Assembly (NCBI RefSeq): GCF_001647085.1
Contig: NZ_CP015520.1
Location: forward strand, 1,322,219-1,386,218
DNA length: 64,000 bases
Direction of reading: 5' to 3'
DNA from: Thermococcus piezophilus
Lineage (GTDB): Archaea; Methanobacteriota_B; Thermococci; Thermococcales; Thermococcaceae
Shown: positions 27,024-62,475 of the stretch, in pieces
Layout of the letters: every line of letters begins with the position of its first letter
Numbering within the stretch: the stretch's first letter is position 1
Position numbers and translations under genes: made by a program
Notes under the pieces: model-generated
What the model saw: only the letters and a program-made list of their open reading frames with translations
Databases searched by the model: none
What the model was told of the DNA's origin: nothing

Positions 27024-27893
27024 ATGGGATGGCTTACAGTTATTGCCCTTCTCGCCTTTCTGTTTTTGGCTTTTGTCGCTTTCGTGAGCTACAAGATGGT
27101 GAAGCCACCAAGGCTCATCGAGGACTGGACGCCTAAGGAGTTTGGCCACGACTATGAGGATGTCACGATAGAAACGCGCGATGGGCTCAAGCTGAGCGGC
27201 TGGTGGATTGACAACGGGAGCGATAAGACAGTGATACCGCTCCACGGCTACACTTCCAGCAGGTGGTATTCCCTCTACATGAAGCCCACAGTCGAGTTTC
27301 TGCTCAAGGAGGGCTACAACGTGCTTGTCTTCGACTTCCGCGCCCACGGGAGGAGCGGGGGTAAATACACAACGGTGAGCGATAAGGAGTTAACCGACGT
27401 CTTATCTGCCATCGACTGGCTGAAGAAGGAGCACCCAGACAAGGCGGAGAAGATAGGCCTAATCGGCTTCTCGATGGGCGCAATGGTGACCATAAGGGCC
27501 CTTGCAGAGGATGAAAGGACCTGCTGTGGTGTGGCAGATTCGCCGCCGATGGATCTCGACAAAACTGGAGCTAGGGGGCTCAGGTACTTTGCCAACCTGC
27601 CGGAGTGGCTCTACACCTTTGTCAAGCCATTCACCAAGCTCTTCAGTGGCGGAAGGGAAATCCACCCGATAGAGTACGCCGACAGAGTCAGAAAGCCCCT
27701 CCTCATCATAGCCGGTGAAAAGGACCCGCTCGTCAAGGTCGAGGAAGTCAGAGCTTTCTACGAGCGGAACAAGAGAATCAATCCGAACGTCGAGCTGTGG
27801 GTTACCGATGCCACCCATGTCAGGACGCTCAAGTTCCATCCCGAGGAGTGGAAAGCGAAGGTCGGGGAGTTTCTGAGGAAGTGGATGGCTTGA
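27024..27893 (+). CDS. Membrane-anchored alpha/beta hydrolase
   Basis: Serine hydrolase of 289 residues with an N-terminal transmembrane anchor (MGWLTVIALLAFLFLAFVAF). The nucleophile elbow is GFSMGA near residue 150, the oxyanion loop is PLHGYTSS, the acid is in AGEKDPLVK and the histidine in DATHVRT. It belongs to the BAAT/acyl-CoA thioester hydrolase-like or DLH-like group. Cotranscribed with MFS transporter 2. The substrate is unknown. Confidence 0.87.
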   Translation: MGWLTVIALLAFLFLAFVAFVSYKMVKPPRLIEDWTPKEFGHDYEDVTIETRDGLKLSGWWIDNGSDKTVIPLHGYTSSRWYSLYMKPTVEFLLKEGYNVLVFDFRAHGRSGGKYTTVSDKELTDVLSAIDWLKKEHPDKAEKIGLIGFSMGAMVTIRALAEDERTCCGVADSPPMDLDKTGARGLRYFANLPEWLYTFVKPFTKLFSGGREIHPIEYADRVRKPLLIIAGEKDPLVKVEEVRAFYERNKRINPNVELWVTDATHVRTLKFHPEEWKAKVGEFLRKWMA

Positions 27894-27931
27894 GAAGCTT
27901 TTGATTCCCTTACCCGTTTTCTCTGTGAAAA

Positions 27932-27993
27932 GCGGCCTCGGCTAACCCTCTTTTCCTCACCGCTCAGTGTGGCTAACGCTCGTCATCGGCCAA
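27932..27993 (-). ncRNA. Candidate C/D box sRNA (minus strand)
   Basis: On the minus strand a GGCC clamp is followed by a C-like box GATGA, 15 bases, D' box CTGA, 3 bases, C'-like box GTGAGGA, 13 bases and an imperfect D box (CCGA) closed by GGCC. The box order and 12-15 base guide lengths fit archaeal 2'-O-methylation guide RNAs, although C' and D each have one mismatch. Both guide regions contain GTTAGC. A TATA element at 28011-28020 lies about 22 bases upstream of its first base. Targets not determined. Confidence 0.45.
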
Positions 27994-28010
27994 AAGAACT
28001 TCTCCCCAAC

Positions 28011-28020
28011 CTTTAAAAAG
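28011..28020. promoter_or_regulatory. Shared, nearly symmetric TATA element
   Basis: CTTTAAAAAG on the plus strand reads CTTTTTAAAG on the minus strand. Its centre is about 24 bases before the plus-strand sRNA and about 22 bases before the minus-strand sRNA, so one TBP site could serve both directions. Confidence 0.5.
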
Positions 28021-28039
28021 AATCCGCCGAAGAAAAGCA

Positions 28040-28113
28040 GGGGATGAGGAGCGTTTACCGGTCTGAACCCGCGCTCCGTGCGGCACGTGATGACATCGGC
28101 ACTGGCTGACCCC
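28040..28113 (+). ncRNA. C/D box sRNA
   Basis: Plus strand: a GGGG clamp runs into a C box (GGATGAGG), then a guide ending TTTACCGG, D' box TCTGA, a 20-base middle, a perfect C' box GTGATGA at 28087, a 12-base guide CATCGGCACTGG and D box CTGA closed by CCCC. The terminal GGGG/CCCC stem and the perfect C' and D boxes make this a strong candidate for a 2'-O-methylation guide bound by L7Ae, Nop5 and fibrillarin. It ends 2 bases before the convergent thymidylate kinase stop. Confidence 0.7.
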
Positions 28114-28114
28114 A

Positions 28115-28732
28115 TCACTTCTTGAGGAGTTCGTGCTCAACCAGGGCGACGATGTCGTTGTGTATGTCCTTGACGCTGGCGAGGGCGTTCACTATCTTCA
28201 TCTCCGGAAACCTCTCTGCGAGCTTGAGGTAGTTCTCCCTGACCTTCTTCTGGAGCTCCACTATCTTGTCGAACTCTGTCTTTATGCTTCGTCCGTTTAT
28301 GCGCTTCATGCTTTCCTTGACGGGCAAATCGAGGAGGATTACGAGATCCGGCCTAATGGCGAAGCGGTTCAGGTCAATGAGCCAATCCAAATCGAGACCC
28401 CTCGCCCATTGATATGCCAGGGACGAGTAGAAGTAGCGGTCGGAGATGACGATCTTTCCAGCCCCTATAGATGGTTTTATCAGCTTGTGGACGTGCTCCG
28501 CTCTATCTGCTGCGAAGAGAAGCGCCTCAGCCTCGTGGCTTATTCGAGCTCCGTCTATTATGCCCTCCCTGCCGCCGGTGAGGACGAGCCTTCTGATGAG
28601 CTTTCCGAAGGCTGTATCTGTTGGCTCTTTAGTTAGAACCACGTCGTAGCCTTTTTCCTCGAACCACTTCGCTAGAAGCTTTGCTTGAGTTGATTTACCA
28701 GCACCATCTATGCCCTCGATAACAATGAACAT
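28115..28732 (-). CDS. tmk: Thymidylate kinase
   Basis: dTMP kinase of 205 residues, phosphorylating dTMP with ATP. It starts [20 protein letters not shown] with the P loop, followed by the dTMP site motif [15 protein letters not shown] (DRY form) and a lid with [10 protein letters not shown]. The ATG at 28732 gives the usual family N-terminus; the open frame extends to a TTG at 28753, and a GTG at 28738 is better spaced from GGGGGTGA. Confidence 0.95.
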
Positions 28733-28839
28733 TCCCACAGATGTCACCCCCAAAATGAACAGAGGGGGTTATTAAGGGCTCCCCTTTTAACGCTTTTCTT
28801 TCAGGATTTTGAGCCGATTTAAAAAGAAAGTAAAAAATC

Positions 28840-60944: not shown

Positions 60945-62475
60945 TCTAGAATTCTCCTAGAGTCTTATTGCAACCTTCCTCAACCGCCGAATCTTCTTCT
61001 CAAGCCTCTCAAGTTTCAATTCTCCTAGAGTCTTATTGCAATGGACGAGTTTGCGCTTAATAAGTCGAAATTCATTAATGTTTCAATTCTCCTAGAGTCT
61101 TATTGCAACTTAAGCCAGAGGGTTTTCCGGTTAAGCGGTTCGTCTTTGTTTCAATTCTCCTAGAGTCTTATTGCAACCAGGGGTAACTATTCATGACGTA
61201 GAGACCGCTGTGAATTGGACGGTTTCAATTCTCCTAGATTCTTATTGCAACTTGGTATTGGCGGGCTCATTGGGAGCTCCCATCACCAAGTTTCAATTCT
61301 CCTAGAGTCTTATTGCAACTACGCTTTATATATTTGCTCATAACTTCGACTTCGATGTTTCAATTCTCCTAGAGTCTTATTGCAACATTGTAAGTTTCGC
61401 AACAGGAGTGGGTATTGCACTCTGTTTCAATTCTCCTAGAGTCTTATTGCAACCGGTTTTCCTTTTCATTGATGAGGTCCAGAACCTTTGTTTCAATTAT
61501 CCTAGAGTCTTATTGCAACCTTAGATTGTTGAACCTTCCCAAGAACCCGAAAGATTAAGTTTCAATTCTCCTAGAGTCTTATTGCAACTATAAGAGCGTT
61601 CATGTGCAACCTTAGATTGTTGAACCTTCCCAAGAGCCCGAAAGATTAAGTTTCAATTCTCCTAGAGTCTTATTGCAACACACCGGAGGTCCAGACGTCC
61701 TTACGTACAAAGTCTAGTTTCAATTCTCCTAGAGTCTTATTGCAACCTCCTACAGTATTTTGTTAGGGACATTCGAACGGCGGAGTTTCAATTCTCCTAG
61801 AGTCTTATTGCAACGTCGACCACGCAATATAAGGCGCTGTAAAAGAATGTTCAATTCTCCTAGAGTCTTATTGCAACGATACAAACCCGAGCGCGACTTA
61901 TATTAGTATAGGTTTCAATTCTCCTAGAGTCTTATTGCAACACTGGCAGTCTCGACGCGAGCTATCTCACAAGCAGACTGTTTCAATTCTCCTAGAGTCT
62001 TATTGCAACCATTCGTCGTTGTTATTGTATAGTTACTAATGTCGATGTTTCAATTCTCCTAGAGTCTTATTGCAACTGCTGTTGTACTATGCAGCAGAAA
62101 ACAGCGTAACAATGTTTCAATTCTCCTAGAGTCTTATTGCAACCTAATGTGTCGATTATCTGGTTTGCGATTTTGTCATGTTTCAATTCTCCTAGAGTCT
62201 TATTGCAACACGGCAACGCGGTTTTGACTTTTTCGATGATTTTGAGTTTCAATTCTCCTAGAGTCTTATTGCAACCCGTCAAAGTTCGGCGACCTCATCT
62301 ACTACAAGGTCAGTTTCAATTCTCCTAGAGTCTTATTGCAACCCAGTTCCAAAGCCTAGCCAGAAGCCATCCTTACATGTTTCAATTCTCCTAGAGTCTT
62401 ATTGCAACGCCATGAATCCCATTGCTCCCATAAAGCTCGCAACTGGTTTCAATTCTCCTAGAGTCTTATTGCAAC
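60945..62475 (-). CRISPR. CRISPR array, 23 repeats of 30 nt and 22 spacers
   Basis: Plus-strand repeats start GTTTCAATTCTCCTAGAGTC and end TTATTGCAAC. The likely transcript is the minus strand, because the 8-base end ATTGAAAC matches the 5' handle of Thermococcales crRNAs and because the degenerate terminal repeat (60945-60974, first six bases lost) lies at the low-coordinate end. Most spacers are 34-39 nt; two are 44 (61178-61221) and 61 nt (61589-61649). Variants: the repeat at 61013 ends in T, 61222 has G to T, 61490 has C to A, and 61849 is 29 nt. The spacer at 61520-61558 is repeated at 61611-61649 with one change. Confidence 0.97.

Follow-up and report, generated by a model that had tools for sequence, protein, structure and literature searches.

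Two divergent C/D box sRNAs in the hydrolase-tmk gap

In the window, a 64,000-nucleotide stretch of Thermococcus piezophilus DNA, an alpha/beta hydrolase gene (27024-27893, plus strand) and the thymidylate kinase gene tmk (28115-28753, minus strand), both assigned with Pfam, are separated by an inter-ORF gap of 221 bases (27894-28114), rather than the 217 bases counted in an earlier sequence-only reading. There are two RNA genes in this gap. In the cmscan search, the minus-strand RNA matches the Rfam family sR34 (RF01273) at 27936-27990 (72.7 bits, E 3e-13, gathering cut-off 40), and the plus-strand RNA matches sR12 (RF01147) at 28042-28110 (39.8 bits, gathering cut-off 38). The sR12 score is marginal because of a loop insertion; its orthology is backed by the position and the guide shared across 82 genomes. 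Both RNAs are already known Thermococcales C/D box sRNAs and, as the sequence-only reading had proposed, boxes C, D', C' and D follow one another in order on both strands.

The sR34 RNA is closed by an outer GGCC/GGCC stem, which in the fold extends it to about 27933-27991. Read along the minus strand and aligned to RF01273, it comprises box C (AUGACGA, 27980-27986), the D' guide GCGUUAGCCACA (27968-27979), box D' (CUGA, 27964-27967), a degenerate box C' (GUGAGGA, 27954-27960), the D guide (27942-27953), of which AAGAGGGUUA pairs with 23S rRNA, and box D (27938-27941), which is CCGA in place of CUGA. The deviations in C' and D had been recognised from the letters alone and are genuine, and both are shared beyond the window: the CCGA box D recurs in most same-genus genomes, and the C' deviation is also conserved across the genus. 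The weakness formerly ascribed to the minus-strand RNA is not borne out, as it is the stronger family match of the two, and its 72.7-bit score rules out the view that it is a doubtful RNA.

The sR12 RNA, with an outer GGGG/CCCC stem, spans 28040-28113 on the plus strand and comprises box C (AUGAGGA, 28044-28050), the D' guide GCGUUUACCGGU (28051-28062), box D' (CUGA, 28063-28066), the D'-C' loop (28067-28086), box C' (GUGAUGA, 28087-28093), the D guide CAUCGGCACUGG (28094-28105), and box D (CUGA, 28106-28109). The D'-C' loop is unusually long, with 20 nt and a hairpin at 28069-28083 (CCGCGC-UCC-GUGCGG), whereas that of the RF01147 model has about 3 nt. Apart from the window genome, only G026, G038 and G040 have a 20-nt loop able to form a GC-rich six-pair hairpin.

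Between the C-D' half of sR34 (27964-27987) and that of sR12 (28043-28066) there is an inverted repeat of 24 bases with 75% complementarity, centred on the TATA box that lies between the two genes. The repeat could have arisen by inverted duplication or by convergent use of GAGCGUU beside box C.

Conservation of the sR34/sR12 pair

Covariance-model searches detect sR34 in 92 of 94 family genomes, including all 74 of the high-quality ones, and sR12 lies head to head beside it at 82 of the 92 sR34 loci inspected. The ten loci lacking sR12 belong to g2 (three), g6 (one) and a sub-group of g4 (six), and in these six g4 genomes a search for the D' guide with its D' box, allowing up to two mismatches, found no convincing copy of sR12 elsewhere. 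Differences in loop length and in the D guide leave the generic sR12 model with weak matches to many of these copies, and the reliable marker across genomes is the D' guide CGTTTACCGG. In the same-genus alignment, conservation reaches 97% in sR34, 90% in sR12 and 83% in the TATA block, compared with 59 and 66% in the spacer on either side.

The pair and its spacer stay together while the neighbouring genes vary among genomes. On the right, the family has tmk, a gene ending ELKEKGEVDY, or others, and on the left it has several different genes. In a snoPyro_CD search of the 1.93-Mb, single-contig genome, no other two credible matches are adjacent. The sR34 model has a second, weaker match in the window's own genome at G000:C1:298782-298835 (34 bits), and second matches occur in about 25 relatives, with up to 48 bits in g4; these probably represent either a paralogue of sR34 or a different C/D sRNA.

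Position of the TATA box relative to both sRNAs

A palindromic TATA box, CTTTAAAAAG (28011-28020, core TTTAAA at 28012-28017), is situated between the two sRNAs. Its centre, at 28014.5, is 28.5 bases from the A of the box C ATGA of one RNA and 29.5 bases from that of the other. With the mapped T. kodakarensis starts as a guide, the likely start sites in the window are predicted at G27991 (minus) and A28039 (plus), about 48 bp apart. The TATA centre is 23.5 bases from the first and 24.5 from the second, close to the distances of about 22 and 24 bases first proposed.

Among the 60 same-genus genomes that have the pair, the window included, every one has a single TATA positioned 26.5-31.5 bases from both C boxes (exact TTTAAA in 53, all 60 when one mismatch is allowed). 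When the window spacer is shuffled, one TATA at this distance from both RNAs arises in 0.035% of cases for the exact motif and in 1.1% with one mismatch. The flanking BREs are less regular. Specifically, matches to RRAAA in same-genus genomes amount to 0-3 of five positions on the minus side, mostly one, and to as many as four of five on the plus side, while the window has two of five on both sides. Such poor BREs may make the window promoter weak or skewed.

Transcription starts mapped in T. kodakarensis

In G024, which we take to be T. kodakarensis KOD1, the sR34 match lies at 1226844-1226898 on the minus strand, with sR12 next on the plus strand, and these coordinates agree with those published for sR41 and sR42 of that species. 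Tko-sR41 has a circle junction at 1226838-1226899 and a start at 1226903, and Tko-sR42 has a circle junction at 1226948-1227017 and a start at 1226948 (PMC9014305, Table 1; starts from Jaeger 2014). Both RNAs are expressed and are circularised by the ATP-dependent RNA ligase (PMC9014305). The G024 TTTAAA, at 1226922-1226927, is 21.5 and 23.5 bases from the sR41 and sR42 starts, respectively. These distances fall 3-5 bases short of the 26.5 usually seen between a start and the TTTAAA centre. At the orthologous locus, then, a minus-strand transcript exists and both starts fall within the 20-30 bases of the TATA that the sequence-only reading had named.

The two loci thus have orthologous RNAs in divergent order with one TTTAAA between them, and the T. 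kodakarensis starts are 45 bp apart. They differ in sR12, as Tko-sR42 has a shorter loop and the D guide AGACUGGCACUGG where the window has ACAUCGGCACUGG. In the T. kodakarensis literature that we found, there is no comment on the pairing of sR41 and sR42 or on their common TATA.

These data also bear on whether the C/D-like boxes could be chance motifs in an intergenic gap, with no RNA genes present. The motifs are short, and folding of both sRNAs is no better than that of shuffled sequences (z-scores), an uninformative outcome that is expected for C/D RNAs. Covariance matches above the curated cut-offs, near-total conservation in the family and the published expression of the orthologues refute this explanation, to which we give practically no credence.

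A TATA box probably used in both directions

Symmetric archaeal promoters are reportedly the subject of a 2021 study by Warman. In P. furiosus, dRNA-seq and in vitro transcription showed that symmetric BRE-TATA-BRE promoters give rise to RNAs in both directions, with starts 49-50 bp apart (PMC6640164, Gruenberger 2019). Direction is set by TFB on the BRE and not by the TATA itself. The window shares with these promoters a palindromic TATA midway between divergent starts about 50 bp apart. It differs in its products, both of which are conserved guide RNAs, whereas the P. furiosus promoters usually yield one antisense RNA that appears to have no function, and the minus-side BRE of the sR34/sR12 locus is poor by comparison.

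If the BRE sets the direction, plus-strand transcription (up to four of five BRE matches) should outdo minus-strand transcription (mostly one of five) in many species. The small-RNA reads of T. kodakarensis favour the plus direction as this rule predicts (12,085 for sR42 versus 1,967 for sR41), but the total-RNA reads disagree (226 and 359), so that the read counts give only a hint.

The proposal of one symmetric TATA for both RNAs is upheld by its conservation, by its geometry in relatives with differing spacers and by the start sites known for sR41 and sR42, and a single TATA common to both RNAs is strongly supported. We therefore read the locus as the conserved head-to-head sR34/sR12 pair of the Thermococcaceae, with one palindromic TATA between the genes that is used both ways, and put the probability of this reading at roughly 0.87. 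By analogy, two-way transcription in this species would proceed through the orientation of TFB. TBP would bind the one palindromic TATA, and TFB would orient the initiation complex either way, so that the same box could start both sR34 (minus strand, near G27991) and sR12 (plus strand, near A28039), some 48 bp apart. Each transcript would begin at its own C box or a few bases before it and then fold its outer stem, and each RNA would be expected to bind L7Ae, Nop5 and fibrillarin and to be trimmed and partly circularised.

The principle of the bidirectional promoter is already published, and the locus is a tidy, conserved example of it. Our literature search, which is known to miss key papers and thus does not establish an absence from the literature, returned none that joins bidirectional promoters with archaeal C/D sRNAs; the novelty of a conserved pairing under one TATA, with a changeover in other genera to two TATAs, is uncertain.

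Promoter arrangements in relatives

In g4, g5 and one Pyrococcus genome (G009, of g3), two crossed TATAs lie between the genes at a distance of 15 bp from each other, and the spacer measures 41-43 bases compared with 56-59. Each crossed TATA is placed 26.5-31.5 bases from its own RNA, compared with just 11-15 bases for the opposite RNA. This arrangement favours an explanation in which the window, too, has two independent overlapping promoters, each with its own BRE and TATA, and the TATAs coincide only because the spacer is short. In the same genus, however, all 60 genomes have only one TATA in range for both RNAs and no second TATA is conserved; moreover, their spacer is 15 bp longer, exactly as a fusion of two TATA functions requires. 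We consider two independent promoters very improbable. The difference in spacer length equals the distance between the two crossed TATAs, and we infer that a single change in spacer length, if accompanied by degeneration of the second box, would interconvert the two-TATA and one-TATA forms.

A different possibility is that the promoter serves sR12 only and that sR34 arises by cleavage of the 3' UTR in read-through transcripts of tmk. Most archaeal C/D sRNAs have no promoter of their own and derive from adjacent transcripts by processing (Breuer 2021, PMC7994747), and the weak minus-side BRE is in keeping with such an origin, as are three Pyrococcus genomes of g3: G004, which we take to be P. 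abyssi, G006, presumably P. horikoshii, and G008. In these three, there is no TATA between sR34 and sR12, only 8 bases separate the two ATGA motifs and 2 bases the family matches, and on either side the neighbouring ORF runs up to the outer edge of the sRNA. Against read-through stands the start of Tko-sR41, mapped 21.5 bases from the TATA. Furthermore, the sR34-side TATA is kept where sR12 is missing: the six g4 genomes without sR12 retain sR34 and both TATA boxes, with a TATA 29.5 bases from sR34, and G002 and G003 (g2), with sR34 alone, carry TTTAAA 28.5-29.5 bases from its C box. A read-through origin of sR34 thus appears very improbable, and a TATA used both ways is the reading that we retain for the window.

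In Pyrococcus of the G004 type, sR12 may come from a transcript that runs antisense through sR34. A TATA-like stretch, GGGAATTTTTAAAATA, is found at the left ORF end in these loci (L003 1470-1620 in G004, and also L002 and L004).

Predicted rRNA targets of the guides

The guides were scanned against the rRNA of the same genome, with the N+5 pair included and 200 shuffles per guide. Specifically, the sR12 D' guide pairs over 11 bp with 23S rRNA, predicting Gm2002 (E. coli G1897), the sR12 D guide pairs with a score of 10.5, predicting Um1961 (E. coli U1841), and the sR34 D guide pairs over 10 bp, predicting Cm2025 (E. coli C1920). Each of these scores is equalled by only 2-4 of the 200 shuffled guides. 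The three predicted sites fall within 65 nt. Aligned to E. coli 23S rRNA, they lie in helix 69 of domain IV or beside it, where a hotspot of archaeal methylation has been described (PMC4644070). The sR12 D guide occurs in two forms, AUCGGCACUGG and GACUGGCACUGG, in the window genome and G024, with the same target site.

Convincing complements were found for these three guides and not for the sR34 D' guide. This last guide pairs over 7 bp with 23S rRNA at G2299 (about E. coli 2201), a weak match that 171 of 200 shuffles equal; at the same site in P. abyssi, the pairing is 9 bp (GUGGCUAAC), and it was only through this longer match that the site came to light. Because of the P. abyssi match, G2299 is probably the target, and the window species has probably lost pairs. 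Among 30 of 44 tRNA loci, no tRNA target beyond 7 bp was found for this guide, and its exact genomic complement, GTGGCTAACG, occurs only in sR34 itself.

By these pairings, the RNAs would guide 2'-O-methylation of 23S rRNA at C2025 (sR34 D), G2002 (sR12 D'), U1961 (sR12 D) and, probably, G2299 (sR34 D').

Possible joint control of the two guide RNAs

Coordination of the two guide RNAs by their common TATA is plausible, since the sites predicted for three of the four guides cluster in one part of 23S rRNA. Sharing of the TATA is not obligatory: g4, g5 and one Pyrococcus use two TATAs, and three Pyrococcus have none between the genes. The case for joint control is weakened because these relatives manage without a common box. 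A more far-reaching proposal, which we regard as tentative and rather unlikely, is that the pair forms a module under selected joint control, in which one reversible TATA would serve one patch of the 23S subunit interface. In this proposal, the 15-bp spacer change would switch between two crossed boxes and one shared box, and the P. abyssi group would have lost the inner promoter, each RNA then coming from a transcript antisense through the other.

The locus is a clean example of a two-way archaeal promoter with two conserved, functional RNA products, and the relatives supply natural variants for the same two genes, with one TATA, two crossed TATAs or none between them. These variants therefore make a good test bed for whether bidirectional use of a TATA balances two products or is a mere by-product of TATA symmetry, and the locus also suits the study of how guide-RNA promoters change during evolution.

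Elsewhere in the window, a CRISPR array of the CRISPR-DR6 family, with 18 listed repeats, lies at 61080-62475 on the minus strand.
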